From Candidatus Saccharibacteria bacterium RIFCSPHIGHO2_12_FULL_44_22 (GTDB lineage: Bacteria; Patescibacteriota; Saccharimonadia; Saccharimonadales; Saccharimonadaceae): a DNA stretch of 58,603 nucleotides. The DNA is taken from contig MGCS01000015.1 of assembly GCA_001790515.1 (NCBI GenBank), forward strand, positions 1 through 58,603, given 5' to 3'. The notes under the pieces are model-generated. The model was given only the letters and a program-made list of their open reading frames with translations, was not told the origin of the DNA and made no database searches. Positions within the stretch are counted from its first letter, which is position 1. Each line of letters opens with the position of its first letter. Below are positions 4,796 to 50,705 of this stretch, piece by piece. The position numbers and the translations under genes are program-made.

Positions 4796-4835
4796 CACCT
4801 TGACGCCCCCGAAAACACACTCGTTCATATTCTCA

Positions 4836-4877: not shown

Positions 4878-4889
4878 CTATAGCTTGAA

Positions 4890-5267: not shown

Positions 5268-5298
5268 ACTATATTCTCCTTTAGTAATTGACTGTTAA

Positions 5299-5517
5299 TT
5301 ATTTGCGGAACACACCGGCAATGGTACTGAAAACTTTGACAGGTGACAGCCACTCTGTTGCCGACGCGACATTTGTCGTGACTGCATCAATTTTTTTTGC
5401 TATGTGGTTCACTTTGATTAGCACCACTGTTACCGTGGCCAATAATGCAAAGATGACAAGTGATAGCAAAATCACCGCTACCGTCAAAAGAGTGACGAGT
5501 ACGTTAAGATCATCCAT
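5299..5517 (-). CDS. Small single-pass membrane protein (72 aa), first gene of the YtxH operon
   Basis: One long transmembrane helix occupies residues 6-35 (LVTLLTVAVILLSLVIFALL...). It is followed by a short amphipathic tail (KVNHIAKKIDAV) resembling DUF948-type partners of YtxH proteins, though much shorter. DUF948-YtxH pairs are common in Firmicutes, so the adjacency supports a joint envelope-stress role; this is inference. GAAAGGAT is a suitable ribosome site. Two -10 candidates lie upstream (TATAAT at 5563-5568 and TACAAT at 5551-5556). Confidence 0.7.
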   Translation of the reverse strand: MDDLNVLVTLLTVAVILLSLVIFALLATVTVVLIKVNHIAKKIDAVTTNVASATEWLSPVKVFSTIAGVFRK

Positions 5518-5550
5518 GCTTGTATCCTTTCTGTTTATTATTACCCTATT

Positions 5551-5568
5551 ATTGTACGTCAGATTATA
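5551..5568 (-). promoter_or_regulatory. Promoter region of the YtxH operon (two -10 candidates)
   Basis: On the minus strand TATAAT (5568 to 5563) and TACAAT (5556 to 5551) both precede the first gene. With the second one, the start point is about 5544 and the upstream TGTAA-N6-TTACA site is centred near -41, the classical position for a class II Crp activator. Confidence 0.5.
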
Positions 5569-5576
5569 AAGATGTA

Positions 5577-5592
5577 TGTAATTTTTCTTACA
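5577..5592. promoter_or_regulatory. Candidate Crp/Fnr-family operator, TGTAA-N6-TTACA (site 1)
   Basis: A perfect 5+5 inverted repeat with a 6-bp spacer, the spacing of CRP sites. It lies 20 bp upstream of the TACAAT -10 element of the YtxH operon. Identical half-sites recur at 19951-19966 and 20347-20362 next to the Crp-type regulator gene. Confidence 0.6.
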
Positions 5593-5600
5593 ACGAATAT

Positions 5601-5633
5601 AGTATATAGTTGTTAAATTAACAACTATATACT
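5601..5633. repeat. 33-bp perfect palindrome
   Basis: A 16-bp arm on each side of a single central A, read from AGTATATAGTTG to CAACTATATACT. It lies between the stop of the HAD gene and the YtxH-operon promoter. As RNA from the HAD side it could form a hairpin but lacks a clean T-run. It could instead be an operator or cruciform. Function unknown. Confidence 0.6.
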
Positions 5634-5646
5634 TAACTGCCAGATC

Positions 5647-6423
5647 TTATACTAAAGATTCTACGGAATCATCTAATACGAATCTGTGCATTGCTTCTGC
5701 AAATCCATCATCAGCCAATGTACTAACGACATAGTCAGCTTGAGATTTGAGTCTATCAGTTGCATTCCCCATCGCAACTTTGACTCTAGCATTCTGAAAT
5801 AACGAGAGGTCGTTATCACCATCGCCAATCGCCAGCGTCTGGTCTTTCGTCAACCCTACGATGTCATGCAGCGCGGAAACGCCATAAAATTTGTCAGCCT
5901 GGAAGTGACAGGTCTGGATTCCGATAGTGCTCGGATCATCCAGCGTTATTGCATGGGCAACCACACCTGCAACCTGTTCAATTTGAGCGAAAATTCCAGG
6001 TACATCGTTTATATGAACTTCCGCATAGACGTACGGAGCTGGATCAGTGATCGTGTCGATGTCAATCTGATCTGACCTAGTTTCGTTCCACCCCTCTTTG
6101 TAGTCAATAATCTTGGTATGAGGCAACATAATTGCAACGAGGCTTTTAAGCGTATCGACATCGAGCCATTTACGCCAAACGATTTCTCCGGAAGTTGAAT
6201 GAACTACCGTTGCGCCACCGTCAACAACACATAATCCGTCAATGCCCAAAACCGTAAAAACATTTTTTGCAAATTCATATGGTCGCGCAGTCACGGCTGC
6301 AACCTGCACTCCTTTTTCTTCAGCGGCGATGATCGCCGAGCGAACAGCTTCAGATGCGGTATGCTGCTTTGTCGCAACAATCGTGCCATCCATATCCGTA
6401 ACAACTAGTTTAATCGAATGCAT
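5647..6423 (-). CDS. HAD-superfamily (Cof-type) phosphatase
   Basis: Motif I is VVTDMDGTIV (DxDGT) at the N-terminus, motif II is in VAAVTARP, and motif IV is LAIGDGDNDLSLF, with the C2 cap typical of Cof/YidA phosphatases between them. The C-terminal KVAMGNATDRLKSQADYV is also diagnostic. At 258 aa it has family length. It probably dephosphorylates a sugar phosphate or other small metabolite; the substrate is not predictable. It starts 3 nt after the aspS stop without an evident ribosome site, so translation is likely coupled to aspS. Confidence 0.9.
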   Translation of the reverse strand: MHSIKLVVTDMDGTIVATKQHTASEAVRSAIIAAEEKGVQVAAVTARPYEFAKNVFTVLGIDGLCVVDGGATVVHSTSGEIVWRKWLDVDTLKSLVAIMLPHTKIIDYKEGWNETRSDQIDIDTITDPAPYVYAEVHINDVPGIFAQIEQVAGVVAHAITLDDPSTIGIQTCHFQADKFYGVSALHDIVGLTKDQTLAIGDGDNDLSLFQNARVKVAMGNATDRLKSQADYVVSTLADDGFAEAMHRFVLDDSVESLV

Positions 6424-6426
6424 CGT

Positions 6427-8199
6427 CTATTCTTCGATTTGAAGTGATAAATCTTTTAGTTGTACAGCGTCAACAGTACTTGGCGAGCTCATCATGACAT
6501 CGACACCCGACCCATTCTTTGGGAAGGCTACAACTTCACGAATGTTTGACTCGTCGCTTAGTACCATAAATATACGGTCGATTCCAAATGCAGCACCGGC
6601 ATGTGGTGGTGCACCGAATTTAAATGCACTCAACATCGCGCCAAATTTATCCTCGACGTATTCCCGACTATAGCCAAGGACACCGAATGCTTCATACATA
6701 ACCTCTGGGTTGTGGTTTCGGACTGCGCCCGATGCGATTTCGTAGCCGTTCATAACCATGTCGTATTGATCAGCAACAATAGTAAGCTTCTTTTCATCTG
6801 TGTCCGCCGCCGTAAGTACTTCGGCTCCGCCGCGAGGCATACTAAATGGGTTATGACCAAAATCAACTTTTTTCGCTCCTTCATCCCACTCGTAAAAAGG
6901 AAAATCGACGATCCATGCAAGCGCAACTTTATTTGGATCTTTGAGGCCGAAATGATCGGCAAATTCTGAACGTAATTTGCCCAGAACTTTGTTTACTGTT
7001 TCACGTTTGTCGGTGCCGAAAAACACCGTGTCACCGTCTGACGCGTGCATCTTTGTTTTGATTACATCTAATTCGCTAGCAGACAAAAACTTCGCAATAG
7101 GTGATTTTGACTCACCGTTTTCGTAACTAATATACGCCAGTCCGCCGGCACCTTCACGTTTTGCAATATCGGTAAATTTGTCTATTTGCGAGCGACTGAG
7201 GCTTGCCCCGCCCTCGACTCGGATCGCTTTGACAACACCGCCACTTGCGAGCGTATTTTTGAACACACCAAACTCAGTGTCTGCAAGTTCTTCTGAAAGA
7301 TCCGTCAGCTCCATTGCGAATCGAAGATCAGGTTTGTCTGAACCAAATCGATCCATAGCTTCTTGATAAGGAATGCGCGGGGTGTCACTACTTACAAGTT
7401 GTTTCCCGCCAAATTCTGTGACAAGTCGTTTGATGAGTGGTTCCATTGTCGAACGAATTACTTCTCCGTCGTCGACGAATGACATCTCAAGATCGAGCTG
7501 ATAAAAATCACCATACAGGCGATCTGCGCGAGGGTCTTCGTCGCGAAAACACGTCGCAATTTGGTAATAACGATCGAGCCCACCAACCATCAAGAGTTGC
7601 TTGAATTGTTGCGGTGCTTGCGGCAATGCATAAAATTTACCGGGATGAACGCGTGATGGTACCAAGAAATCTCGCGCACCTTCTGGGCTGGAGTTGGCTA
7701 ATATTGGCGTCGTTACCTCTGTAAATGATTGTTCATCCATGTACTGTCGAAGAATCTTGTAATAATCTGACCGGCGTTTCAATGTTTGTTGCATACTTGG
7801 ACGACGTAGGTCAAGATAGCGATATTTAAGGCGCAGCTCTTCGTTTGACTGCTGTCCATCATCGGACACTGCAACCGGAAGCGGGTCTGATTTGTTCAAA
7901 ATAGTGATAGTTTCGGCAACGATCTCGATCGTACCTGTCGCGAGGTTTGGGTTTTTGAGGTTTTCGTCACGTTCAGTCACGACACCTGTAATTGCTAAAA
8001 CGTACTCGTCACGAATTGTTTCTGCAAGCGAAAAAGCATCATGCGCTTCTGGATTGACAACGATCTGTACGACACCCGTGTGATCACGTACATCAATAAA
8101 GATAAGTCCGCCATGGTCACGGCGACTGTTCACCCAACCACTGACACTAATAGTTTCATCAATATGTTCAATGGTTGCCGTTGCTAAGATTCTGGTCAT
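6427..8199 (-). CDS. aspS: Aspartyl-tRNA synthetase, bacterial type, possibly non-discriminating
   Basis: Class II synthetase with an N-terminal OB fold (SGWVNSRRDHGGLIFIDVRD), motif 1 region, YRYLDLRRP, motif 2 (FRDEDPRADRLYGDFYQLD), the GAD insertion and motif 3 (GAAFGIDRIFMVL). At 590 aa it is the usual bacterial length. It charges tRNA-Asp. In the anticodon-binding loop the position that is Leu in discriminating enzymes such as E. coli is His (RRDHGG), as in non-discriminating enzymes that also charge tRNA-Asn for GatCAB. A second diagnostic position is Asn rather than the Lys or Gly of the two classes, so the call is open. A structured leader precedes it. Confidence 0.95.
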   Translation of the reverse strand: MTRILATATIEHIDETISVSGWVNSRRDHGGLIFIDVRDHTGVVQIVVNPEAHDAFSLAETIRDEYVLAITGVVTERDENLKNPNLATGTIEIVAETITILNKSDPLPVAVSDDGQQSNEELRLKYRYLDLRRPSMQQTLKRRSDYYKILRQYMDEQSFTEVTTPILANSSPEGARDFLVPSRVHPGKFYALPQAPQQFKQLLMVGGLDRYYQIATCFRDEDPRADRLYGDFYQLDLEMSFVDDGEVIRSTMEPLIKRLVTEFGGKQLVSSDTPRIPYQEAMDRFGSDKPDLRFAMELTDLSEELADTEFGVFKNTLASGGVVKAIRVEGGASLSRSQIDKFTDIAKREGAGGLAYISYENGESKSPIAKFLSASELDVIKTKMHASDGDTVFFGTDKRETVNKVLGKLRSEFADHFGLKDPNKVALAWIVDFPFYEWDEGAKKVDFGHNPFSMPRGGAEVLTAADTDEKKLTIVADQYDMVMNGYEIASGAVRNHNPEVMYEAFGVLGYSREYVEDKFGAMLSAFKFGAPPHAGAAFGIDRIFMVLSDESNIREVVAFPKNGSGVDVMMSSPSTVDAVQLKDLSLQIEE

Positions 8200-8240
8200 T
8201 GCATTATTCCCTGTGTTAAGTGATTTAATGGCTGATCTTG

Positions 8241-8279
8241 GGGTCGATTACAAATAGAGCGCCAGCTATTTGCCGACCC
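8241..8279 (-). promoter_or_regulatory. Two-part stem-loop in the aspS leader
   Basis: GGGTCG pairs with CGACCC (6 bp) and, inside, CAAATAG pairs with CTATTTG (7 bp), enclosing an 8-nt loop. The structure lies 42-80 nt before the aspS ATG. A GATAAT hexamer just beyond it (about 8290) could start the leader. There is no T-run after the hairpin, so it is not a simple terminator of the upstream CBS gene. I see no T-box signature. Regulatory role is inference. Confidence 0.45.
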
Positions 8280-8349
8280 GCAAATTATTATCGTACGTTG
8301 CATGCCATGTCATAATATGATCTATAATAGCACTTTACCTCTGTGGATA

Positions 8350-9306
8350 CTAGTGTCTTGAAGGAATGAACTCGTCATCAAGCCGTCGACCAAACAACGC
8401 TTCAATGACATCTTCGATCGTCAACAGACCAACTGTTTCACCTTTTTTGTCAACAACAATCAACAGATGATGGTGATGGTGTAAAAACGCACCAAGTGCC
8501 TGACGAAGTGTATCTGACGCATGAATATACTCGACTCTCACGTCCATTGCTTTCTCTGCAGTTGACGTCTTTTTGCCCGAGTCGAGCGTTAGCAGATCAC
8601 GAAGATGCAATATACCGATAATCGAATCAAGGTCACGATCAATCACCGGAAACCGGTTGTGACCCGTTTTGTGAAGGTCATCAAGAACGAGCGGACCAAG
8701 CAATTCATTCTTTGGGACTGTCGCGATGCTTTCGCGCGGAACCATAAGCTCGCTTACCGTTCGTTCGTTAAATCGAAGGCTATGCATGAGCATATCGCGC
8801 TCCGTGACAGACAGTGCCGCTCCACTATGCTCAACAACATGAAGTAATTCATCACGAGAATGAATCTTGGATTCAGACGAGACAGCTATCCGAGGAGCAC
8901 TCAGTATGGCACGCACAACAGACGAACGAGCAATCGCATCAATTAATACCGGGCTATGTTTTTCAAAGTAACGCTGCGGCAGAGTTGTCACGAAACGAAG
9001 TCGAGCAATGGGCATATACACCAACGCGACGATCAATAGTATCGCTAAACCTGCACCCGTTCCAAAATAAACAAGACTCGTGACTACCGCACCCAGAAGT
9101 AATAATAGCGAAAGCAAACGAAGAAATGCTGACAGTTCATTCCGATATGTCTCTTGATACTGCTCCTTTAGCGCCCGGGTATCACCGTTATTCGCTAAGC
9201 GTTTTAGTTCGTATTTACTCAGACGCGTAGAGCGAACATTCACTCCAGCCACTGCAGCGGCACATAGTGTCAGCAGCACAACAACTAAACTAATGATAAG
9301 CGTCAT
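8350..9306 (-). CDS. CBS-domain membrane protein (CNNM/CorC-like)
   Basis: An N-terminal membrane segment (residues 2-22) and a hydrophobic hairpin at about 63-100 stand where CNNM/CorC proteins have a DUF21 domain, but the region is shorter. The conserved connector ERDMLMHSLRFNERTVSELMVPR leads into a CBS pair (residues about 195-310) that ends GLLTIEDVIEALFG, the signature of this family. Members are linked to magnesium or cobalt efflux and membrane ion homeostasis. A run of five histidines lies within the second CBS domain. No CorC_HlyC domain follows. TACAAT with an extended TGG ends 9 nt before the ATG, consistent with a leaderless mRNA. Confidence 0.85.
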   Translation of the reverse strand: MTLIISLVVVLLTLCAAAVAGVNVRSTRLSKYELKRLANNGDTRALKEQYQETYRNELSAFLRLLSLLLLLGAVVTSLVYFGTGAGLAILLIVALVYMPIARLRFVTTLPQRYFEKHSPVLIDAIARSSVVRAILSAPRIAVSSESKIHSRDELLHVVEHSGAALSVTERDMLMHSLRFNERTVSELMVPRESIATVPKNELLGPLVLDDLHKTGHNRFPVIDRDLDSIIGILHLRDLLTLDSGKKTSTAEKAMDVRVEYIHASDTLRQALGAFLHHHHHLLIVVDKKGETVGLLTIEDVIEALFGRRLDDEFIPSRH

Positions 9307-9315
9307 AATACCACC

Positions 9316-9321
9316 ATTGTA
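9316..9321 (-). promoter_or_regulatory. Extended -10 of the CBS-protein promoter
   Basis: TGG-TACAAT on the minus strand, 9 nt before the ATG at 9306. It is back to back with the DsbA-like promoter region. Confidence 0.5.
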
Positions 9322-9349
9322 CCACCTTGCCGACCAGTTGCGTTTCTAC

Positions 9350-9364
9350 TACAATAAGTATAGT
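9350..9364 (+). promoter_or_regulatory. -10 candidates for the DsbA-like gene
   Basis: TACAAT (9350-9355) and TATAGT (9359-9364) lie 18-27 nt before the start. Either gives a short leader containing AAAGGAG. Confidence 0.45.
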
Positions 9365-9381
9365 AAACAAAGGAGTTTTAG

Positions 9382-10125
9382 GTGAATACAAAATCATGGG
9401 TTATCTTTGGCGCAATATGTGTGCTACTTTTCGGTGGACTGATTTACTTTTCAAGGCAGAACAAGGTAAGCGTCGATCTTAATGGTGTTGATATCAATAA
9501 GGCAATTGCAGCATCAGATCAAAACGGCAACATCGCAGATCACACACTTGGTGATCCGAATGCCAATGTCGTACTGATTGAATACGGCGATATTCAATGT
9601 CCTAGTTGCGGTGGCGCGCATCCTGGCATCAAGCAAATCACCGAAGACTATGGTGACAAAATCGGATTTATCTTCCGTAACTTCCCACTCACGTCAGCAC
9701 ACCCGAATGCATTTGCCGCGGCAACTGCAGCCGAAGCAGCAGGCCTACAGGGTAAATACTGGGAGATGCACAACATTTTGTTCGAAGATCAGAATACATG
9801 GAGTAGCCTGTCAGCCGAACAGCGCACATCCAAATTCATCGATTACGCTCGACAATCTGGCGTAACAGACCAAGCAAAGTTTGAGTCAGACTTATCTGCA
9901 GGTTCAATTAGTACCAAAATCGGTTTTGACCAGGCAGTTGCGCGACAAAAAGAAGTTTCAGCAACACCAACATTCTTCTTAAACGGAGAGAAGGTCGACT
10001 CTGATACATCAGGCAAACTCGTACAAGGTGATGCGTCTGCAATTCGCGCATTGATCGACCGCAAGCTGAAAGAAAATAATATCGAGCCACCGGCATCAAC
10101 AGCAGCAACGACCGGAACTAATTAA
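9382..10125 (+). CDS. Membrane-anchored DsbA-family thiol oxidoreductase
   Basis: An uncleaved signal anchor (residues 6-25) is followed by a DSBA/thioredoxin_4-type domain. Features are VVLIEYGDIQCPSCGGAHP with the CPSC active site near residue 72, FRNFPLTSAHPNAFAAA, and the cis-proline loop SATPTFFLNGE. It is expected to oxidise or isomerise disulfides in exported proteins, several of which in this window carry cysteines. No DsbB or VKOR partner is encoded in the window. The start is GTG, chosen because AAAGGAG lies 6 nt upstream and the signal anchor follows at once. A strong terminator follows. Confidence 0.9.
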   Translation: MNTKSWVIFGAICVLLFGGLIYFSRQNKVSVDLNGVDINKAIAASDQNGNIADHTLGDPNANVVLIEYGDIQCPSCGGAHPGIKQITEDYGDKIGFIFRNFPLTSAHPNAFAAATAAEAAGLQGKYWEMHNILFEDQNTWSSLSAEQRTSKFIDYARQSGVTDQAKFESDLSAGSISTKIGFDQAVARQKEVSATPTFFLNGEKVDSDTSGKLVQGDASAIRALIDRKLKENNIEPPASTAATTGTN

Positions 10126-10142
10126 CTAGTCAAAAATGAATA

Positions 10143-10168
10143 AACCACCTCGGTGCCTTGAGGTGGTT
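10143..10168. terminator. Strong intrinsic terminator after the DsbA-like gene
   Basis: AACCACCTC pairs with GAGGTGGTT (9 bp, 8-nt loop), followed by CTTTTTTT on the plus strand. On the minus strand the stem is followed by a weaker TTTATTC, so it may also end the small unit at 10.2-10.4 kb. Confidence 0.9.
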
Positions 10169-10206
10169 CTTTTTTTGATTTTGAAGTTCCTTCTATTACA
10201 GGATCA

Positions 10207-10439
10207 TTACTTCGATTCATTCACTAATGAGCGATATACAGTTGCCATTCGGCAGGCACCACATCCACTGCTATCTTTTTGGCCCGTGAGGACACAAACG
10301 AGATGGCTATAGGCATGGGTTATTGTACTCCTTGTACTATATGCAGCCCCGCGCACTTCGACCTTTAAAAATGTAATTTTTCGTGTTATTTGGCGCGGAA
10401 CACATATATGATCATACCAATTCATCATTGGTACGTCAA
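10207..10439 (-). other. Small transcription unit with strong promoter, product undecided
   Basis: On the minus strand TTGACG (10439 to 10434), exactly 17 bp, then TATGAT (10416 to 10411) form a near-consensus promoter. Downstream lie three competing short frames. A 22-codon frame starts 5 nt after the -10 (10405 to 10337). A 30-codon frame follows AAGGAG (10316 to 10224). A 73-codon open frame runs through the whole stretch (10428 to 10207), but its ATG lies upstream of the predicted start point. None resembles a known family. A small RNA of roughly 250 nt ending at the terminator near 10150 is equally possible. Confidence 0.4.
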
Positions 10440-21533: not shown

Positions 21534-23309
21534 TCACAGCTTTTCGTCTGAGTGAGGCAAATATATTGAAAACGTCGATCCTTTGCCCAATTGAGATTCG
21601 ACCGATATGTCACCACCATGCAACCTGATGAGATGTTGCGCCAAATACAGCCCGACTCCTGTACCAGTAACAAGGTGACTACGCTTGTTCATTAAACGAG
21701 AGAACTGCTTGAATAGCTTTGGTGTGTCTTCAAAGGCAATACCAACTCCTGTGTCTTGTATAGACAGATTATAGCCTGTTTCGTCTGTTTTTAGCTGAAC
21801 GGTTATTCTGCCCCTTGCATCGGTGTATTTGATAGCATTGCTCATGATATTTTCAACCGCCATACGAACCATATGCTTGTCGGCGTATAGCGTTGCATGT
21901 TTTGGTAATTTGGTAGTCAGTTTCAGCTTGGCAGATTTTAGCTCTTGGTTCTGCTCGTCAAGAACGTCTTTTACTAGTTCGCTCAAATTAAATCTACTCT
22001 TCGCAAGAACGATCCGTCCTAGATCTAGTTTAGCTAAATGGAGAATATCATTTATCACTCGAAGTTGTCGTTCGTTACTTTTATATGCTTTCGTCAGCAG
22101 TTCAATTTGCGTATCTGAGACAGGTCCTGCAAATCCCTGCAGTATCATGCCGACATACTGCTTGACTCCTGTCGCTGGTGTTCGTAATTGATGCGACGCG
22201 AGTGACAGCAGCTCGTCTTTTGCCCTCGTTACATCGCGCTCCTTATCAAGCAGTAGGCGATGATGACGACCGCGCAGAAAGAAAAATGTTATTGTTCCTA
22301 TCAAAATTGCAACAATAATACCAAATGATACTGTATAAATCGGCGAGCGTAGCTGCGTGTCTGATACCAAGAAATTACTATCGAAATCATATTTGATAGT
22401 AAATGTCTGTCCATAAAAATTCAGTGTCTGTATTCTTGTGATTTGCGGTCCGCTTGCTTTTGTCGCCGCTGCTTTATACACCTGCGATTGCCCATCACCA
22501 ATACCCATAAAGACTGTCATTCCGACATGTGTTCTGTCAATGCTGCTAAATATCTGATCAAAGACACGCTCAGTTCTAAACGATGCGCCGACATGACCCA
22601 TCACGGCAGCTCGTCGCTCTTCAACCGTCGCTATTGGCGCACCCGGCGTGTAGTAAGGCGCATACATCAAGAACGCTGCTCCGTCGGATGTTTGCTCCTG
22701 GCGAGCGTCGGCGATTAATTCTAATTGATCCGACATAACAATCTCGTTTTTATCTGTAGCTTGTTGAGCTGCTCGCTGTCGAGTTGAATCACTATAGATG
22801 TTGAATCCAATGTTTCTTATTGTCGTTGCACGCTCAGGGCTAGCATAGCTCAACACATTCATGTCGGTCTGGTCGTTTGCCATACCCGTTGCCTCCACTG
22901 ATTGTCCATACTGATCAGACAATTGCTGCATGTACGTTTCATACTCCCCTGGTCGAACAACATGCGTCAGGATCATGCTGGAAATCGCCGGGATCGATGA
23001 GCTCAGTTCATAGGTGCCAATAAATTGCCCCCACGATGTTCGATCTACTGCGCCAGAGTTTACTCGACCAACTCCACTTCGCACAACCTGAGCATACGAC
23101 GTAAAGCTACTTTGCAGTAACAATTCGTTTTCTTTTAACTGCTTGTCAACTGCCTGCACCTGCACTGCCAACAAATTACGCTGAATAATTCCACCAATGA
23201 TGATCGTTGCCGCCATAATCGAAACAGTCACTAGCACTGATGTTACTTTTATATACGTGACGCGTCGAACGTATAATTGTTTAAGTGTTTGCGTAAAAGG
23301 CTTACTCAC
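21534..23309 (-). CDS. CHASE-domain sensor histidine kinase
   Basis: TM1 is at about residues 20-42. A 270-residue extracellular domain matches CHASE sensors: SSSIPAISSMILTHVV, RNIGFNIYSDSTRQRAAQQA and AAFLMYAPYYT. TM2 is at about residues 325-345. Then a HisKA helix with ELLSLASHQLRTPATGV (phospho-accepting His) and an HATPase_c domain with NIMSNAIKYTD (N box), IQDTGVGI (G1) and GTGVGLYLAQHLI (G2). CHASE domains bind small ligands such as cytokinin-like adenines or peptides; the ligand here is unknown. GTG start, 11 nt after the PAS gene. Partner of the REC protein downstream. Confidence 0.9.
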   Translation of the reverse strand: MSKPFTQTLKQLYVRRVTYIKVTSVLVTVSIMAATIIIGGIIQRNLLAVQVQAVDKQLKENELLLQSSFTSYAQVVRSGVGRVNSGAVDRTSWGQFIGTYELSSSIPAISSMILTHVVRPGEYETYMQQLSDQYGQSVEATGMANDQTDMNVLSYASPERATTIRNIGFNIYSDSTRQRAAQQATDKNEIVMSDQLELIADARQEQTSDGAAFLMYAPYYTPGAPIATVEERRAAVMGHVGASFRTERVFDQIFSSIDRTHVGMTVFMGIGDGQSQVYKAAATKASGPQITRIQTLNFYGQTFTIKYDFDSNFLVSDTQLRSPIYTVSFGIIVAILIGTITFFFLRGRHHRLLLDKERDVTRAKDELLSLASHQLRTPATGVKQYVGMILQGFAGPVSDTQIELLTKAYKSNERQLRVINDILHLAKLDLGRIVLAKSRFNLSELVKDVLDEQNQELKSAKLKLTTKLPKHATLYADKHMVRMAVENIMSNAIKYTDARGRITVQLKTDETGYNLSIQDTGVGIAFEDTPKLFKQFSRLMNKRSHLVTGTGVGLYLAQHLIRLHGGDISVESQLGKGSTFSIYLPHSDEKL

Positions 23310-23713: not shown

Positions 23714-23742
23714 ACTATAGAGGTATTTAAATACGAGGTCAA
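23714..23742 (-). promoter_or_regulatory. Near-consensus leaderless promoter of the PAS-kinase-REC operon
   Basis: TTGACC (23742 to 23737), exactly 17 bp, TATAGT (23719 to 23714), then 6 nt to the ATG at 23707. Both boxes plus optimal spacing make this one of the clearest leaderless starts in the window. The -35 box overlaps the stop of the upstream gene. Confidence 0.8.
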
Positions 23743-24386
23743 ATACGCACGGCTGTTTGCGACTTCATGCTGTCAGCACTCATGCGAGCATTAAATAATC
23801 GTGTATCTGGCTGCAAAAGCGCACCATTTTTTAATACTCCTAGATCAACACCGTCGAACCCGAGTGCTTCCACGTATGCCATAGCTGTCAGCTTGGCATC
23901 TCTATCATCACCAGCAATTCCTATGGCACGATAACCCTTACTTTGAAGTGGTAGCGCATGCTCTTCGATTTCGTTATATGCAATGTGATTTAATGTCTTT
24001 ATGACATGCGCATCATGTAGGTACTGCTGCACCATTTCACTTGATGTGATGGTTGCATCGGCAAATTCGGCAATGTCCCCCTCGACAGGTGCCCAATAAT
24101 TCATCGCATCAATCACAATTTTGCCTATGAATAGCTGAGGGGTTAGCGATTTATAGTAGCGAAGAGGGAAGGCTAAAATGACAATATCACTCTTACTGAT
24201 CGTCTCGTCGATAGTTGCAGCAATAGCACCAGGTAACAACACACTCAAAAGTAACTCTAAACTTTCCGGCCCACGCGAATTACTAATACGTACTTCGTAT
24301 CCAACGCTCAGCGACTGTTTTGCCAGTGCCGTCCCAAGTCTACCGGCGCCAATGACACCAATCCGTGGAAGATTATTTTTTACCAC
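23739..24386 (-). CDS. NAD(P)-binding oxidoreductase of the F420_oxidored (NADP:F420 / Fno-like) family
   Basis: A Rossmann fold begins with IGVIGAGRLGTALAKQSL (GxGxxG/A) and RISNSRGPESL, in which the Asn-Ser-Arg triplet fits NADPH selection. VILAFPLRYY and IDAMNYWAPVEG with VIKTLNHIAY follow the Fno-like pattern. At 215 aa it has family length. Whether the partner cofactor is F420 or something else cannot be told. It overlaps the upstream LLM oxidoreductase gene by 14 nt, so the two form a redox operon and may share a substrate or cofactor. Confidence 0.8.
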   Translation of the reverse strand: MVKNNLPRIGVIGAGRLGTALAKQSLSVGYEVRISNSRGPESLELLLSVLLPGAIAATIDETISKSDIVILAFPLRYYKSLTPQLFIGKIVIDAMNYWAPVEGDIAEFADATITSSEMVQQYLHDAHVIKTLNHIAYNEIEEHALPLQSKGYRAIGIAGDDRDAKLTAMAYVEALGFDGVDLGVLKNGALLQPDTRLFNARMSADSMKSQTAVRI

Positions 24387-25416
24387 TCGCCAGCGCCTTC
24401 CTTACTTTTGGCGCAACGACTGTTCCCAGCAGTTCAATTGAATGCAAGAATTTGTCATGCGGCAACTGTCCGACGTCCATCTGAAAAATGTGGCGAGAAT
24501 GACCAATCCGTTTATGAAGTTCGATGATTCGATCAGCGATTTCGTCGGCACTGCCAGCAAATAGTGCACCGTCGTGATTTGACTCAGCGTCATAATGAGC
24601 ACGATCGGGTGCTGCAAACCCGCGTACTTTTCCAAGTTCAGTCATCGTCCATCCCCACGCCTTCCAAAATGTCTCTTTTGCATCTTGCGCGCTATCGGCG
24701 ATATAGCCAGGGCTTGCAATTGACACCTGAAGAGCGTCCGATTCAGTGCCGTACTGCTTTGCGGCTGCATGATATAAATCAACAAGTGGCGCAAACCGAG
24801 AAATTCTTCCGCCAATAACAGCATACGCGATTGGCAACCCGAGCGCTGCTGCTCGAATTGACGAATCTGGATTGCCTCCCGTAGCTAGCCAGATTTTCAG
24901 TGGATCATCCGATTGTGGTACGATCTGTGCGTCTTGCAATGGTGCACGATGAATACCCTCCCATGTAATACGTTCATTCTTGTCAAGGTTGTTTAATTGT
25001 AAAAGCAAATCAAGCTTTTCAGTATACAATGCATCGTAATCTTTTAATTCATACCCGAATAGTGGAAACGACTCCGTCGACGAACCACGGCCTGCAATCA
25101 CCTCTACGCGACCACCTGAAATAATATTAGCCGTCGCAAATTGTTGATATATACGAACAGGATCATCAGTGCTTAGTACTGATACGGCACTACCTAGTTT
25201 TATCTGTTTTGTTGTTGCCGCAGCTGCCGCAAGTATCGTGCCCGGCGATGAGGCAGGAAAATAACTCGTATGATGCTCTCCGACCCCAAAGAAATCGAGT
25301 CCAACTTTGTCGGCAATTTGCATCGCTTCAAGAAGATTAGTAATCCCCTCACTCGTTGATCCGAGCTTTTTACCATTCCGCTGTACATCGCCGAAACTAT
25401 AGACACCGAGTTCCAT
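24373..25416 (-). CDS. LLM-class (luciferase-like) flavin-dependent oxidoreductase
   Basis: A TIM-barrel bacterial-luciferase-like protein: FFGVGEHHTSYFPASSPGTIL, the strand IKLGSAVSVLSTDDPVRIYQQFATA, GRVEVIAGRGSS and KIWLATGGNPDSS. This matches the MsnO8/atypical LLM subgroup of FMN- or F420-dependent oxidoreductases (usual length 330-350 aa). It lies divergent from the carotenoid operon with about 100 bp between. TATACT/TATAGT hexamers and AAAGG lie upstream of the ATG. Substrate unknown. Confidence 0.88.
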   Translation of the reverse strand: MELGVYSFGDVQRNGKKLGSTSEGITNLLEAMQIADKVGLDFFGVGEHHTSYFPASSPGTILAAAAATTKQIKLGSAVSVLSTDDPVRIYQQFATANIISGGRVEVIAGRGSSTESFPLFGYELKDYDALYTEKLDLLLQLNNLDKNERITWEGIHRAPLQDAQIVPQSDDPLKIWLATGGNPDSSIRAAALGLPIAYAVIGGRISRFAPLVDLYHAAAKQYGTESDALQVSIASPGYIADSAQDAKETFWKAWGWTMTELGKVRGFAAPDRAHYDAESNHDGALFAGSADEIADRIIELHKRIGHSRHIFQMDVGQLPHDKFLHSIELLGTVVAPKVRKALASGKK

Positions 25417-25505
25417 ATGATACTTTCTATATTACCTTTTACTATATTTAGTATAGCATATATTTTGCACCCCTTGATTGCAGAATGAAAAGGATCAAAA
25501 CAAGC

Positions 25506-25511
25506 TATAAT
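25506..25511 (+). promoter_or_regulatory. -10 element of the leaderless carotenoid operon promoter
   Basis: TATAAT ending 8 nt before the crtE-like ATG. The -35 region is poor, so an activator or weak expression is possible. Confidence 0.6.
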
Positions 25512-25519
25512 AAGATGTA

Positions 25520-26590
25520 ATGAACACCTCAGATGCGACGATAGACACACAAACAGCCGAGGTTAACCGTGTCATTGACCAATACTTTGAGCAATCAATC
25601 ATCGACGCCAGCACGATAAGTCAGTCTTATGAACTACTTTGGAAACACCTTCAAACACTCCTTCGATCTGGCGGCAAACGAGTTCGTCCACAGATGACAC
25701 TTCTTGCCTATGATGCCTTTGGTGGTAAAAATCACACGACGCTCCTTCCTATTGCCGCCGCTCAAGAACTGCTTCACTTTAGCCTATTGATTCACGACGA
25801 CATCATCGACCGCGACTACATTCGCTACGGAGTTCCAAATATCGCTGGACAATACGACACGCAGTATCATCCATATGTTCATGATAAAGTTGAACGTATC
25901 CATTATGCCAACAGTGCGGCGATTCTTGGTGGCGATTTGATGCTGTCTGGTGCGTATCAAATGATCGCAGGCTCACATTTGTCTAGCAGCGATAAGATCA
26001 TTGCTCAATCACTCCTTGGCCAAAGTATTTTTGAAGTTGCTGGCGGCGAACTACTCGACACCGAAGCCGCATTCATGCCCGTCAAACCGGGTGATGCCGT
26101 GCAGATTGCACGGTATAAAACGGCTAGTTATTCCTTTGTCATCCCACTTTTGACGGGTGCTCGACTGGCTGGCGCAAGCGAATCGCAACAGCAAGTACTA
26201 CGCACGTTTGCAATAAAACTTGGTATCGCCTATCAACTCGTCGACGACCTTTTGGGTGTTTTTGGTATCGAAGAGAAAACTGGTAAATCGACATCTGGCG
26301 ATATTCGTGAAGGCAAACACACATTCATGGTTGAACAATGCTTAGAGCGACTTGATACAGAGCAGCGTATGCTGTTTGATATATCTTTTGGAGACCCCGA
26401 CGCGACGACCGCAACAATTGCAAAAGTAAAAGAATTGTTTGTCACGTCAGGTGCAAAAGAAGTGACTGAGCGAACGATTTCGCAATATGCAACCGATGCA
26501 CGTGTTGCACTTCAAGACCTGACAATTGATCCTAAGCATTTAGCGTCATTCGAGCAGTTTATTACAAAAGTCACGGATAGAACTTCCTAA
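25520..26590 (+). CDS. crtE: Geranylgeranyl diphosphate synthase (CrtE-like)
   Basis: Trans-isoprenyl diphosphate synthase with LRSGGKRVRPQM (IPP binding) and the first Asp-rich motif LIHDDIIDRD near residue 94. The second is QLVDDLLGVFG, a DDxxG form common in actinobacterial enzymes, followed by KSTSGDIREGKHTFMV. At 356 aa it fits. Its place before phytoene synthase identifies the product as C20-GGPP for carotenoids. The stop overlaps the next ATG by one base (TAATG). Confidence 0.92.
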   Translation: MNTSDATIDTQTAEVNRVIDQYFEQSIIDASTISQSYELLWKHLQTLLRSGGKRVRPQMTLLAYDAFGGKNHTTLLPIAAAQELLHFSLLIHDDIIDRDYIRYGVPNIAGQYDTQYHPYVHDKVERIHYANSAAILGGDLMLSGAYQMIAGSHLSSSDKIIAQSLLGQSIFEVAGGELLDTEAAFMPVKPGDAVQIARYKTASYSFVIPLLTGARLAGASESQQQVLRTFAIKLGIAYQLVDDLLGVFGIEEKTGKSTSGDIREGKHTFMVEQCLERLDTEQRMLFDISFGDPDATTATIAKVKELFVTSGAKEVTERTISQYATDARVALQDLTIDPKHLASFEQFITKVTDRTS

Positions 26591-27420
26591 TGGATTTGTA
26601 CACTTCCGTTGCCTATGCGTCAAGTAAACAACTGACACTTCGTTATTCCAGTTCGTTTGGCACCAGTAGTCGTTTGTTCGATCGCGCCATTCAACCTCAT
26701 ATTTTTGCAATCTACGGGCTAGTACGAATCGCCGATGAAGTTGTAGACACCTATCGCGGCAACGATACAAGGACGATTCTTGATCAACTTGAAAATGACA
26801 CCTACTCGGCTATTGAGTCAGGCTATAGTACAAATCCAATCATCCATTCATTCGCACTGACTGCACAGAAATTCGGTATTTCCCAAGATCTCATTGCACC
26901 GTTCTTTTCTAGCATGCGCACGGATATTCCGCCCAGTAGCTACACTTCGGATAAGTACCACTCGTATATTCATGGATCTGCGGAAGTAGTTGGACTCATG
27001 TGTCTTCGCGTGTTTTGTAGTGGCGATCAATCCTACTATGATCAACTACAGCCCGGTGCAATCGCGCTCGGTGCCGCATATCAAAAAGTAAATTTCCTTC
27101 GTGACCTAGCGGCTGATTACACTGAACTTGGACGAGTGTATTTTCCGGGAGTAGCGTTCGAAACGTTTGACGATACTGCCAAACAAGCGATCATAGACGA
27201 CATCCAAGCAGATTTCAAATCTGCAAATATCGCTATTTCCGCACTTCCTCGCTCTAGCCGTATTGCCGTGCGTGTCAGTTATCGCTATTATACTCAGCTA
27301 CTCCGCCAACTAGAGCACACGCCAGCAAGCATCATCAAACAAACTCGCGTCCGGATATCGAAACCCCATAAATTATGGCTGCTTGCACAAACCCTTGTTA
27401 CTGAAGGAGTTCATTCATGA
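26590..27420 (+). CDS. crtB: Phytoene synthase (CrtB)
   Basis: The protein shows FGTSSRLFDRAIQPHIFAIYGLVRIADEVVDTY, with the first Asp-rich motif in ADEVVD, and the second motif NFLRDLAADYTELGRVYFP, both signatures of squalene/phytoene synthases. At 276 aa it is on the short side but complete. It condenses two GGPP to phytoene. Overlaps crtE (TAATG) and crtI (ATGA), so the genes are translationally coupled; GAAGGAG within its last codons serves crtI. Confidence 0.92.
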   Translation: MDLYTSVAYASSKQLTLRYSSSFGTSSRLFDRAIQPHIFAIYGLVRIADEVVDTYRGNDTRTILDQLENDTYSAIESGYSTNPIIHSFALTAQKFGISQDLIAPFFSSMRTDIPPSSYTSDKYHSYIHGSAEVVGLMCLRVFCSGDQSYYDQLQPGAIALGAAYQKVNFLRDLAADYTELGRVYFPGVAFETFDDTAKQAIIDDIQADFKSANIAISALPRSSRIAVRVSYRYYTQLLRQLEHTPASIIKQTRVRISKPHKLWLLAQTLVTEGVHS

Positions 27421-28940
27421 AACATATCGTCATCATCGGTGCAGGAATTGGCGGGATAGCAACAGCGAACCTCCTGGCCAAAGCCGGTTACAAGGTGACT
27501 ATTTACGAAAAAAATAGCACACCTGGCGGCCGAGCCGGGCTCCTTGAAATTGATGGTTTTCGATTTGATACTGGCCCATCGTGGTATCTAATGCCCGACG
27601 TATTTAAACATTATTTTGAACTTCTTGATCGCGACGTTTCATCAGAACTCGATTTAGTTCGGCTGTCGCCTGCCTATAAAGTGTTTTTTGAATCGCAACC
27701 ACCACTCACTGTTACTAGCAATATCGATACTGACGCGGCAACATTTGAATCTATCGAACCTGGCGCTGGACTGCAACTTCGTAAGTATATTGACGACGGT
27801 GACATCATCTATCAATTATCACTTCGTCATTTTTTATATAGCAACTTTTCATCACTGTCAGATTTTCTAAAACGTGACATCTTAGTCCGATCCGTTTCGT
27901 TACTAAAGCGCGCCTTTACTCCAATTGACCGTTACGTCAGTGGATTTGTTCATGACCAGCGACTCAAACAAATTCTTGAATACCCTATGGTATTTCTAGG
28001 GACGTCACCATTTGCGGCTCCAGCTATCTATAGTCTGATGAGTGCACTTGATTTTCGTGAGAGCGTGTTTTATCCACGCGGCGGCATGTATACAATCATC
28101 GAACGATTAGTTGCTATCGGCAGCGACCTAGGCGTAACATACCATTTTGATACACCAGTGGATCGCATCATGACGACGAATGGCACCGCTACGGGTATTC
28201 GACTTTCGAACGGCAAAGAATTGACTGCTGACATCGTTATTTCGAATGCTGATCTTCATTTCACCGAAACAAAGTTATTAGACGAACCTGACAGGTCATA
28301 TCCACAAACATATTGGCAAAAACAGCAAGCGGGGCCAAGCGCATTGTTGATGTATCTGGGTATAAAAGGAAGTTTGCCAACAATGGAACATCATAACTTG
28401 CTATTCGTTGATAATTGGGAACAAAATTTCAAAGACATCTACATCGATAAACGCAATCCTAGCCCGGCATCAATCTACGTCTGCAAACCAAGCGCCTCTG
28501 ACGATACCGTTGCACCGAACGGTCATGAGAATGTGTTTATTCTTGTACCGCTTCCTCCTGATGCGACAGTAGACGATACCGATATTGAATCTCTTGCCGA
28601 TCAATATATCATACAATTTTCACAGATGACGGGCATTGCTGATTTTGCCGAACGTATCGTCAGTAGAGAGTTATTTGGGCCTAACGATTTTCGAACGAAG
28701 TTTCATGCCTGGCAAGCAACCGCACTTGGGCCATCGCATATCCTGAAACAAAGCGCATTATTCAGAACTTCAAACAAGAGCAAGAAAGTTAAAAATCTTT
28801 ACTATGTCGGCGGCTCAACGACACCAGGTATTGGCCTGCCGATGTGCTTGATTGGTGCCGAATTAATCTACAAGCGATTATCAGGTGATACGCGTGGTGG
28901 AGCGGTCGTAAAAATCGAACATATAGAGGAATCGTCATGA
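27417..28940 (+). CDS. crtI: Phytoene desaturase (CrtI)
   Basis: The N-terminus VIIGAGIGGIATANLLAKAG is the FAD dinucleotide-binding motif, followed by YEKNSTPGGRAG and FRFDTGPSWYLMPD, both typical of CrtI. The C-terminal LYYVGGSTTPGIGLPMCLIGAELI is the bacterial-type phytoene dehydrogenase signature. At 507 aa it is normal. It introduces four double bases of desaturation to give lycopene. The last codons overlap the first cyclase subunit gene (ATGA). Confidence 0.94.
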   Translation: MKHIVIIGAGIGGIATANLLAKAGYKVTIYEKNSTPGGRAGLLEIDGFRFDTGPSWYLMPDVFKHYFELLDRDVSSELDLVRLSPAYKVFFESQPPLTVTSNIDTDAATFESIEPGAGLQLRKYIDDGDIIYQLSLRHFLYSNFSSLSDFLKRDILVRSVSLLKRAFTPIDRYVSGFVHDQRLKQILEYPMVFLGTSPFAAPAIYSLMSALDFRESVFYPRGGMYTIIERLVAIGSDLGVTYHFDTPVDRIMTTNGTATGIRLSNGKELTADIVISNADLHFTETKLLDEPDRSYPQTYWQKQQAGPSALLMYLGIKGSLPTMEHHNLLFVDNWEQNFKDIYIDKRNPSPASIYVCKPSASDDTVAPNGHENVFILVPLPPDATVDDTDIESLADQYIIQFSQMTGIADFAERIVSRELFGPNDFRTKFHAWQATALGPSHILKQSALFRTSNKSKKVKNLYYVGGSTTPGIGLPMCLIGAELIYKRLSGDTRGGAVVKIEHIEESS

Positions 28941-29257
28941 TAGAAAATTGGTATTACTTATTCGCGCTCGTTTTTTCGATCAGCGGGTTAACAGTACTAG
29001 ACTGGCGATATAAACTTGCATTTTGGGTTGATCAAAAACGGGCGACAATGACCATTGCCATCACGATGCTTGTATTCGTTATTTGGGATTTACTTGGCAT
29101 TCGTTTGGGTATATTTTTTCACGGAGGAAGCGATTACACATTACCGTTACGCATCTTGCCTGAATTTCCTATCGAAGAGCTCTTCTTTTTGTTTCTGCTC
29201 TGCTATGTCACACTACTGCTCTATACAGGAGGTCACCGATTATGGTCACGTATTTAA
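28937..29257 (+). CDS. Lycopene cyclase subunit, CrtYc/CrtYe type
   Basis: A 106-aa protein with three membrane helices and the motif LPEFPIEELFFLFLLCYVTLLLY, typical of the heterodimeric lycopene cyclases of actinobacteria and related to the archaeal/fungal CrtYcd fold. It works only with the next gene's product. Whether it forms beta, epsilon or gamma rings, on C40 or C50 chains, cannot be read from the sequence; the elongase downstream argues for C50. It overlaps crtI by 4 nt and its partner by 16 nt. Confidence 0.88.
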   Translation: MIENWYYLFALVFSISGLTVLDWRYKLAFWVDQKRATMTIAITMLVFVIWDLLGIRLGIFFHGGSDYTLPLRILPEFPIEELFFLFLLCYVTLLLYTGGHRLWSRI

Positions 29258-29535
29258 TACTTAATTTGGCAGTGCTTGCTGTCGTAGCGACTGTTTTTTA
29301 CAAGCACCTCCACAAACCGTCACGCGCCTGGGTAAGTATGCTTATTATCCTTCTTGTCATGACGGCGATATTTGACTCGTTAATAATCATGATGGAAATC
29401 GTTGGATATGACACTACGAAAATTCTTGGCATTTATATTGGCCGAGCCCCTATCGAAGATTTCTTCTATGCGATCCTTGCGGCAGTATTAGTTCCACTTT
29501 TATGGCAGAATGGAAAGTCGCATCATGCTGAATAG
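29242..29535 (+). CDS. Lycopene cyclase subunit, CrtYd/CrtYf type
   Basis: A 97-aa, three-helix partner with the conserved IGRAPIEDFFYAILAAVLVPLLW; PIEDFF is the second-half counterpart of PIEELF in the first subunit. The 16-nt overlap with the first subunit gene implies coupled, equimolar synthesis. ACAGGAGG lies just before the ATG. Confidence 0.88.
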   Translation: MVTYLILNLAVLAVVATVFYKHLHKPSRAWVSMLIILLVMTAIFDSLIIMMEIVGYDTTKILGIYIGRAPIEDFFYAILAAVLVPLLWQNGKSHHAE

Positions 29536-30391
29536 CCTCAAAAAACTTTTTGTTATCTCTCGACCTATATCATGGCCAAATACCGCCTATCCATTTGCTG
29601 CGGGCTATTTGGTTTCGGGTGGGTCTATCGATGCGGTATTTATTGTCGCAACGCTGTACTTTTTGATTCCCTACAATTTATTAATGTACGGAGTAAATGA
29701 TGTCTTCGACTACGAATCTGATATACGCAACCCCCGAAAAGGCGGCATCGAAGGCGCTCGCGAACAAAAAGCATTCCACCCCATCATCATGTGGTCGGCA
29801 TTGCTCACCAATATACCGTTTGTCGGCTATTTATTAGTAGCAGGCACGCTCCTTTCTGCAGCGACACTACTCATCGTTATTTTCTTTGTCGTTGCCTATT
29901 CCATTGCCAAACTTCGATTCAAAGAAATACCCGTACTCGATTCAATCACAAGCAGCATTCACTTTGTTGGACCACTCGTCTATGCGCTGTCCGTAACTGG
30001 ATTCTCAGCCGAGCAATTCCCTTACGTTGTTGCGTTCTTCTTATGGGGAATCGCCAGTCATGCTTTTGGTGCAGTCCAAGATATCATCCCTGATCGAGAA
30101 GGTAACCTTGCGTCTATCGCAACCGTTTTTGGCGCACGTTGGACTGTACGAGTTGTCTTTGTCTTTTATCTCATCAGTGCGGGTCTTATTGCAAGCCAAG
30201 GTATACCTGGATTAATTGTTGGCATAGCAGGACTACTCTATGCCGCTAATATCGTCCCGTATTTACACATTACCGACAAAACTTCAGGCATAGCCAATAT
30301 AGCTTGGAGACGATTCATCTGGCTGAATTTAGTTACAGGGTTTGTTATTACGATGGTTCTTATCGCTACTGAAAGCTCTATTCTTGGCTAG
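29525..30391 (+). CDS. Lycopene elongase, UbiA prenyltransferase family (CrtEb/CrtE2-like)
   Basis: A polytopic UbiA-fold protein with eight to nine helices. It has SRPISWPNTAYPFAAGYL, the first Asp-rich motif GVNDVFDYESD (NDxxDxxxD) and the second in GAVQDIIPDREG. The SWPNTAYPFA segment is typical of lycopene elongases that add two C5 units to lycopene to give C50 flavuxanthin-type products. I prefer the ATG at 29525 (MLNSLKK), since GGAAAG lies 7 nt upstream; the frame opens at 29510. It overlaps the second cyclase gene by 11 nt and ends the operon, six nucleotides from a convergent gene. Confidence 0.88.
   Translation: MLNSLKKLFVISRPISWPNTAYPFAAGYLVSGGSIDAVFIVATLYFLIPYNLLMYGVNDVFDYESDIRNPRKGGIEGAREQKAFHPIIMWSALLTNIPFVGYLLVAGTLLSAATLLIVIFFVVAYSIAKLRFKEIPVLDSITSSIHFVGPLVYALSVTGFSAEQFPYVVAFFLWGIASHAFGAVQDIIPDREGNLASIATVFGARWTVRVVFVFYLISAGLIASQGIPGLIVGIAGLLYAANIVPYLHITDKTSGIANIAWRRFIWLNLVTGFVITMVLIATESSILG

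Positions 30392-46222: not shown

Positions 46223-46223
<1 letters not shown>
45912..46223 (-). CDS. Short F1 epsilon-like subunit
   Basis: After a 25-residue P/E/T-rich lead, the sequence MAIKIYAPFKIYYEGEGYSLSAVNATGPFDILPHHHNFLCML and the closing HVKADSVTVFVDV match the N-terminal beta sandwich of ATP synthase epsilon. The C-terminal helical hairpin, which inhibits ATPase in bacterial enzymes, is absent, so the protein ends at 103 aa. Its ATG overlaps the beta stop by one base (TAATG). It is the last gene before the terminator. It probably binds gamma in the rotor; the loss of the inhibitory helices would leave the ATPase unrestrained. Confidence 0.8.
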
Positions 46224-48564
<2,341 letters not shown>

Positions 48565-48622
48565 TAATTGCATCTCCGGACTATGAGACAAACATGGCTA
48601 CTCTTTTCCCTTGAATGCATCA

Positions 48623-50200
48623 TCATTTCTTATCCTTTTTGTCATCTGGTTTTGCGGATTCAGCCGCCGCACTTGCTTCGGCTGCGGCTGCGTTTTCCGC
48701 TTCTTCAGTTTGGTGTCGTTTCTCGATCTCGATCTTTGCAGCTTTTTCGATTGCTATCTTTTTCGCTTCATCAATTGTCGTCACATCTGCTTTCAGTGCG
48801 GCTTCAAGTTCGTCAAAATTACCATTCATATCTTTGTCTTCTTGCAATTTTGTCGCATAGTCGTGCACTTTTTCTTTGAGCAATTTGACGTTAATGATCT
48901 CTTCGGGGCTACTTCCAAGTACAATACTCATGATAAATTGCTGCTCGGCAAAACTATAAATTTCACCAATTGCTTGATTCATGAGCTTAAACAACACTTT
49001 ACCTTTGTCGTACATCGCCTGCGAATCAGCACTCAGTTCGGTACCAAAGTGCGCATATTCTTCGGCTGTTCGATAGCCAGCCAATGTCAGGTTGAGTTTG
49101 TCAGCAAATCCTTTTTGCCGTTTGTTTTGACCGACACCACCGACACGCGTGACCGATAGCGCAGTACTGACTGCGGGGCGCATCGTGTCTTTGAATATCT
49201 TCTCATCTAATATCCATTGTCCGTCTGTGATCGACATGATATTCGTCGGCAGATACGCCGTAATGTCGCCGCCAGGTGCGTAGACGATCGGAATCAGCGT
49301 CTGGCTGGCATGATTTGATTCTGTCTTGCCGCCACGCTCAAGCAAACTTGAGTGCGTATAGAACATGTCACCAGGGTACGAGTCGCGCCCTGGTGAGACA
49401 CCGGCGATGAGTGATATTTCGCGGTAGGCTTGGGCGTGCGCCGTTAGGTCGTCATAGATTACCAGCGTATCCATATTGAGTTGGTGCCAGAAATATTCAC
49501 CGTGAGCCGCACCGACGTATGGCACGAGGTACGTCAAAATGAGTGATTCAAATGAATTACTGACGACAACGATAGCTTTTCGGAGCGCATCATTTTTTTC
49601 AAGGTTACTGACAAGTTCTGCTACATCGTGCTGACGTTTGGCAATAAGCACGTAAATCACCGTAATGTCAGTGTTTTTCTGATTAATAGCCACCTGCGCC
49701 GCAAGTGCAGTCTTGCCGACCTTGCTATCACCAAGCATCGCCATACGTTGTCCACGCGCAAGCGAATATTCAAGATCAAGGATTGTTACGCCCGTCTCGA
49801 CCGGAGTATCGAGAAGTTCACGTTCGTAGAGCATCGGTGCACTATGAAACACATCCCATTCTTGGTCGGCGACGATGTCACCCTTGCCGTCAAGCGGCTC
49901 GCCAAATACATTGACGACTCGCCCAATGAAATTTTTACCAACAGGAACCATAATGTCACGCGCTTCGATGACGCAAACAGCACCAATGTGGAGCGGTGAC
50001 GGATCAAGCTTCATCACGACAACATGATCTTCAAGAACCTGGTGAACATAGCCACGAGTATCGTCATCAAATCGCACCGTTGCGTGCACATTCGTGGGCT
50101 GCAAACCGCGCACACTCACCATGAACGAATCAATACCAATAATTTCGCCGACTGGGTTTCCTGCAGTCACTAATTTTTCAAATATTTTACTTGCTTCCAC
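48623..50200 (-). CDS. F1-type ATPase alpha subunit
   Basis: The P-loop is GDSKVGKTALAAQ. The sequence also has VIYDDLTAHAQAYREISLI, SPGRDSYPGDMFYTHSSLLER, SITDGQWILDE and RPAVSTALSVTRVGGVGQ, whose Arg is the alpha arginine finger. At about 525 aa it has normal length, but the N-terminal crown segment is short and a charged A/E/K-rich tail of about 60 residues is added. I prefer the GTG start at 50200, with GGAG 7 nt before it; it overlaps the delta-like gene by 14 nt. The frame opens at 50230. Divergent but clearly alpha. Confidence 0.9.
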   Translation of the reverse strand: MEASKIFEKLVTAGNPVGEIIGIDSFMVSVRGLQPTNVHATVRFDDDTRGYVHQVLEDHVVVMKLDPSPLHIGAVCVIEARDIMVPVGKNFIGRVVNVFGEPLDGKGDIVADQEWDVFHSAPMLYERELLDTPVETGVTILDLEYSLARGQRMAMLGDSKVGKTALAAQVAINQKNTDITVIYVLIAKRQHDVAELVSNLEKNDALRKAIVVVSNSFESLILTYLVPYVGAAHGEYFWHQLNMDTLVIYDDLTAHAQAYREISLIAGVSPGRDSYPGDMFYTHSSLLERGGKTESNHASQTLIPIVYAPGGDITAYLPTNIMSITDGQWILDEKIFKDTMRPAVSTALSVTRVGGVGQNKRQKGFADKLNLTLAGYRTAEEYAHFGTELSADSQAMYDKGKVLFKLMNQAIGEIYSFAEQQFIMSIVLGSSPEEIINVKLLKEKVHDYATKLQEDKDMNGNFDELEAALKADVTTIDEAKKIAIEKAAKIEIEKRHQTEEAENAAAAEASAAAESAKPDDKKDKK

Positions 50201-50705
50201 GATACGACTCCAATTCTGCGACAAGCGCATCGTGTTGACCGTTCAACGCACCACGCAAACTAAAATCATGAACGTGATTTGGTGTTCGTAAATAGACACC
50301 CGCAACAAGCCCAGGTTGTAGTCCAGGTACTATCACCGCCTGTGGATGAACGGTGGTTCGTACCCACTGCGCAAGCTGCTGCAAACTCGTCGCGTCCGCT
50401 GGTACCGCAAATGTCATATGAAGTACTGGCACTTTGTCTTTGAGCAGCCGCACTTGTTTGATCAATTCTGCACGCTCTTGATTGTTATCAAGCCTCAATT
50501 TGTTTTGGTGTAAAAACTCTGTTAATTGTTCTGACAAAACCGGCATTGTTCGATCTGGAGATCCAGCTTTTACGCGAATCATCAGGGCAGCAATCTCGGT
50601 GTCGACTCGCTCCAATTCTGTGACAAGCCGCGATACATCGACCTTCGTCACGATGCTTGACGGCAGTACAAAGTCGACATATGTTTTTATCGGTGCGTCG
50701 GTCAT
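50187..50705 (-). CDS. F1 delta/OSCP-like subunit
   Basis: A 172-aa soluble protein, mostly helical in the first 110 residues. Its C-terminal HMTFAVPADATSLQQLAQWV, VIVPGLQPGLVAGVYLRTPNHVHDFSLRGAL follows the end of delta subunits (DPxLIGGxxIxxxDxVxDxSxRxxL). The similarity is weak and rests mainly on this segment plus position before alpha. In classical enzymes delta joins the peripheral stalk to the top of alpha3beta3. ATGA overlap with the upstream coiled-coil gene. Confidence 0.65.
   Translation of the reverse strand: MTDAPIKTYVDFVLPSSIVTKVDVSRLVTELERVDTEIAALMIRVKAGSPDRTMPVLSEQLTEFLHQNKLRLDNNQERAELIKQVRLLKDKVPVLHMTFAVPADATSLQQLAQWVRTTVHPQAVIVPGLQPGLVAGVYLRTPNHVHDFSLRGALNGQHDALVAELESYRGSK

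Follow-up and report, generated by a model that had tools for sequence, protein, structure and literature searches.

Clusters for C50 carotenoids occur in Micrococcales, including Agreia, Arthrobacter, Cellulomonas, Leucobacter, and others, and Micrococcus luteus has a sarcinaxanthin cluster. In Corynebacterium glutamicum, the cluster crtE-cg0722-crtBIYeYfEb encodes a heterodimeric C50 cyclase and the elongase CrtEb, and deletion and complementation show that decaprenoxanthin is formed via lycopene and flavuxanthin (PMC3598387). Among Patescibacteria, the bacterioruberin genes lyeJ, crtD, and cruF have been reported from Lake Baikal, including Saccharibacteria G46 (PMC9948471), and saccharibacterial rhodopsins have been proposed to depend on the isoprenoid material of another cell, namely host retinal (PMC9296517).

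Here, we analyzed a window of 58,603 nucleotides, which is contig 15 of the genome of Candidatus Saccharibacteria bacterium RIFCSPHIGHO2_12_FULL_44_22, and found in it a six-gene carotenoid operon. We consider it likely, with a probability of roughly 0.78, that this operon makes a cyclic C50 carotenoid from C5 units or short prenyl diphosphates that are taken from the host or from neighboring cells. On the best reading, with enzyme activities assigned by orthology, the product would be of the decaprenoxanthin or sarcinaxanthin type. The literature searched, which did not extend to preprints and most subscription papers, gave no earlier description of such a cyclic C50 gene cluster from Saccharibacteria.

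Gene content and order of the operon

The operon consists of six intact open reading frames on the plus strand (25520-30391), with neighboring genes overlapping by 1-26 bases. The first gene, crtE (25520-26590), encodes a GGPP synthase (E-polyprenyl diphosphate synthase) of the actinobacterial type (PF00348, 159 bits), with DDIID as the first Asp motif and DDLLG as the second. It is followed by crtB for phytoene synthase (26590-27420; PF00494, 133 bits), in which the motifs DEVVD and NFLRDLAAD are retained, and by crtI for phytoene desaturase, acting to lycopene (27417-28940; TIGR02734 crtI_fam, 521 bits against a cut-off of 238). Two half-size subunits of a C50 carotenoid cyclase come next, both with the TIGR03462 CarR domain (53 and 50 bits, respectively; cut-off 39): the CrtYe-like subunit A (28937-29257) carries a PIEE motif, and the CrtYf-like subunit B (29242-29535) carries a PIED motif and also matches Lycopene_cyc (PF18916). 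The last gene (29510-30391) encodes a CrtEb-like lycopene elongase of the UbiA prenyltransferase type, with the motifs NDVFDYESD and DIIPD and matches to PF01040 and to NCBIfam PRK13105 (402 bits against a cut-off of 217), while quinone-type profiles were absent or far lower. Upstream of crtE, an intergenic region of 103 bases (25417-25519, plus strand) faces a divergent LLM gene and presumably holds the operon promoter; a scan for promoter and terminator consensus sequences gave nothing beyond chance level.

The sequence-only reading had claimed a complete, overlapping operon of crtE, crtB, crtI, two half-cyclases, and a UbiA-type elongase in a CPR-type genome. The intact reading frames and the profile matches bear out the predicted operon, and the genome is indeed of that type, at 1.23 Mb in 16 contigs and 99.45% completeness.

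The gene order is that of the actinobacterial crtE-B-I-Ye-Yf-Eb arrangement. The enzymes and their order are the same as in C. glutamicum, although in the window crtE is followed directly by crtB, without a cg0722-type membrane protein gene, and no MarR-type CrtR regulator was seen adjoining the operon. Most Micrococcales loci share the identical order, and their elongases are 50-56% identical to that of the window over the matched part. All six genes also occur in identical order in 18 further genomes of the window's family, with two more loci cut by contig ends. Because this order recurs in these 18 genomes as well as in the named Micrococcales and Corynebacterium, the operon is not a chance assembly. 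We also rejected misbinning, since the operon is present in three family genomes (G072, G077, and G111) that were each assembled as a single contig of 0.90-1.04 Mb, and its GC content equals that of the window.

In the Baikal Patescibacteria, too, genes for C50 carotenoids include a lycopene elongase, but those genes are scattered and belong to an acyclic route (PMC9948471), whereas the window's operon is complete for a cyclic C50 carotenoid and includes crtE, crtB, crtI, and a cyclase of its own. An acyclic product like that proposed for the Baikal bacteria, of either the bacterioruberin or the flavuxanthin type, would be in keeping with those reported genes and with the fact that the elongase by itself would yield an acyclic C50 compound. 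Such a product is nevertheless quite improbable, as both cyclase subunits are intact and retain PIEE and PIED, their genes occur in all uncut operons of the window's family, and the surroundings of the operon in the window showed no further CrtI/CrtD-like gene. Neither crtD nor cruF was seen in the operon or its neighboring genes.

Several other genes were identified in the window. A luciferase-like monooxygenase gene and an F420-oxidoreductase-like gene (23739-25416) adjoin the operon, and the same pair lies near crt genes, in differing positions, at three other loci (L041, L073, and L091). A CHASE-domain histidine kinase is encoded upstream (21534-23309); related kinases were found near 11 other crt loci, although they belong to a large family. 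Two genes for ATP synthase alpha/beta-type subunits, one of them matching a V/A-type C-terminal domain, are located at 46223-50230.

Some loci of other Saccharimonadia families (L065, L066, L068, L069, L220, L221, and L222; for example, L069:10215-12230) encode fusion proteins of 666-684 aa, in which the lycopene elongase is followed at its C-terminus by a GT2 glycosyltransferase domain. The GT2 domain of these fusions matches HpnB and, in L221, also the carotenoid glycosyltransferase CruG, and no such fusion was present in the Actinobacteria loci compared. The genes for C50 carotenoid glycosylation in C. glutamicum were unknown as of PMC3598387, and the fusion protein is a candidate for this step.

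Enzyme conservation, distribution, and ancestry

The window proteins were scored against alignment columns that are at least 95% conserved in Actinobacteria. The elongase keeps 80 of 81 such columns, CrtE 33 of 34, CrtB 56 of 66, CrtI 104 of 117, and cyclase subunits A and B 13 of 14 and 8 of 9, respectively, and the catalytic Asp-rich motifs are intact in this comparison. A possible grouping of the elongase with quinone-type UbiA enzymes had been raised in advance; by profile, tree, and conserved columns, it sides with actinobacterial CrtEb. The outgroups of the elongase tree were LyeJ-type Actinobacteria and haloarchaea, and its sequences included no menaquinone or ubiquinone enzyme. A search of solved structures with the elongase gave chance-level matches only.

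When relatives were compared, most pairs showed saturated or nearly saturated synonymous sites, and pN was mostly 0.13-0.35, indicating that all six genes are under purifying selection. The sequence-only reading had named the absence of any precursor route, combined with inactive enzymes, as speaking against a working pathway. Precursor genes were indeed not found, as described below, but purifying selection argues against inactivity.

Phytoene synthase (crtB) was found in 46 of 393 sampled Saccharimonadia genomes, belonging to 33 of 153 genera. The gene order of the window also occurs in three genomes of other Saccharimonadia families, and in several deeper families crtI-crtE-crtB is divergent from cycA-cycB-elongase, with these loci adjoining a conserved block that we read from the sequences as putative secE-nusG-rplK-rplA. 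In a few genomes, crtB stands alone or is accompanied only by crtE, with no other gene of the set close by. One further locus (L062 of genome G299, 4351-10319) contains crtI, crtB, a gene for a fused CarR cyclase (246 aa), and crtE, without an elongase and with a DNA photolyase gene downstream, and looks like the C40 carotenoid cluster of another Saccharimonadia genome. Among public contigs, one labeled 'Chloroflexi bacterium isolate PMG_070' (L073) carries the crt operon of the window's family, with 74% elongase identity, and is probably from a mislabeled Saccharibacterium; 'bacterium isolate Co_bin.139' (L091) likewise groups with Saccharibacteria.

Trees of CrtE, CrtB, CrtI, and the six concatenated proteins each had one branch that splits Saccharibacteria from Actinobacteria (SH-aLRT 100), and the CycA tree gave the same split (SH-aLRT 93). 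The CycB tree leaves it unresolved, requiring one more change. For the elongase, an earlier tree rooted on haloarchaea alone placed most Actinobacteria inside Saccharibacteria; with the nearer LyeJ-type outgroups added, a quick search recovered the two separate groups with weak support. The Actinobacteria sample was at first biased to near relatives and was later widened. For each of the six proteins, the closest relatives belong to other Saccharibacteria, with up to 77% identity. In these comparisons, the window-type sequences form a saccharibacterial group apart from C. glutamicum and apart from Micrococcales, which do not appear as a recent source, and the operon has a GC content of 44-46%, equal to that of the window (about 45%).

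Taken together, profiles, gene order, and trees support the claim that a Saccharibacterium carries the C50 gene set of the actinobacterial type, with its heterodimeric cyclase and elongase, but they do not support the accompanying suggestion of transfer from a present-day actinobacterial host. Cultured Saccharibacteria live on Actinobacteria, and recent acquisition from such a host would fit this habit as well as the gene order common to Micrococcales and the elongase identity of up to 54% to that order. It is largely refuted, and we regard it as very improbable, given the branch that parts both groups in five of the trees, the saccharibacterial nearest relatives of all six proteins, the matching GC content, and the occurrence of crtB across so many sampled genera. 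Given that the GC content of the operon matches that of the window and that so many genera carry the trait, any exchange must be old. The trees point to one old exchange of the operon between Saccharibacteria and Actinobacteria, without a recent gift from a host. The operon thus has a long history in Saccharibacteria, where it was inherited or passed between members of the group, probably with frequent losses.

Source of isoprenoid precursors

A search for precursor genes had been proposed along with the operon and was carried out here. Controls matched in family searches of the source genome, but searches for GHMP kinase, IspH, HMG-CoA reductase, and type-2 IPP isomerase gave no hit; neither an MEP route, which C. 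glutamicum has, nor a mevalonate route was found. To our knowledge, a GHMP kinase is required by the MEP route and by all known variants of the mevalonate route. This family was absent from 43 of the 46 crtB-positive genomes. Among the three with a match, one protein is a heptose kinase and two weakly match homoserine-kinase-like profiles; we rejected them as kinases of an IPP route, since they are unlike mevalonate or MEP kinases. Type-2 IPP isomerase was above the cut-off in only two genomes.

Downstream uses of prenyl diphosphates were detected. UppS was present in 40 of the 46 crtB-positive genomes, which indicates that these cells also use IPP for the cell-wall carrier, and crtE was the sole PF00348 member (E-prenyl diphosphate synthase) found in the whole source genome. 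The UppS of the source genome (contig 2; L223:7413-8424) is a divergent form common to the window's nearest relatives, scoring 123 bits against about 230-275 in most crt-positive relatives. Its gene adjoins one for a WhiB-type transcription factor (PF02467), a family typical of Actinobacteria.

In CPR classes except Gracilibacteria, just the C10-C20 isoprenoid steps have been described (PMC9166423), and scavenging of IPP was considered probable in a Saccharibacterium (PMC6031116). These reports, together with the precursor genes not found here, make import the best reading, with C5 units or short prenyl diphosphates probably coming from another cell. No conserved neighbor gene for a prenyl diphosphate importer was seen among the crt loci compared.

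The missing precursor route would also be consistent with a cell that takes up a finished C40 carotenoid, lycopene or another, from its host and then only elongates and cyclizes it, and the proposed use of host retinal by saccharibacterial rhodopsins (PMC9296517) offers a parallel. We consider this unlikely, because crtE, crtB, and crtI are under purifying selection just as the later genes are, these three genes are retained in the operon of all uncut family members, and the elongase requires DMAPP anyway. In contrast to the rhodopsin case, the gene set suggests that the cell would make the carotenoid itself. A rhodopsin search of the source genome gave no match, but control genomes gave none either.

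Proposed pathway and its meaning for Saccharibacteria

For the synthesis of a cyclic C50 carotenoid from acquired precursors, CrtE would build GGPP from C5 units or short prenyl diphosphates supplied by the host or neighbors, CrtB would join two GGPP into phytoene, and CrtI would desaturate phytoene to lycopene. The elongase would then attach a C5 unit from DMAPP to each end of lycopene, giving a flavuxanthin-type intermediate, and the heterodimeric cyclase would close both rings to yield the decaprenoxanthin- or sarcinaxanthin-type product. This pigment would be yellow and probably lies across the membrane, where it may stiffen the bilayer and quench reactive oxygen.

Fatty acid synthesis was not found in these CPR groups (PMC9166423). 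A bilayer-spanning C50 carotenoid would let the cell adjust a membrane of acquired lipids and quench reactive oxygen. More broadly, and at slightly below even odds in our estimation, many Saccharibacteria may build a C50 pigment de novo, drawing entirely on C5 or short prenyl diphosphates that they acquire from another cell through an undescribed uptake route, and may use it to adjust a membrane for which they cannot make the fatty acids either. That the operon even went from Saccharibacteria to Micrococcales is a further and much less likely part of this idea.

What makes this system noteworthy is how broadly the operon occurs in the class, how old it is, and how it relies on precursors that the cell apparently cannot make. 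A reduced, host-dependent bacterium invests about 5 kb of its genome and ten C5 units per molecule in a pigment, apparently without making any C5 unit. The carotenoid and the widespread UppS make the source of isoprenyl diphosphates in Patescibacteria a testable question. In co-culture, the carotenoid would serve as a visible and measurable marker of crt-positive Saccharibacteria by color or Raman signal, and the dependence of the pigment on the host could be traced by isotope label.
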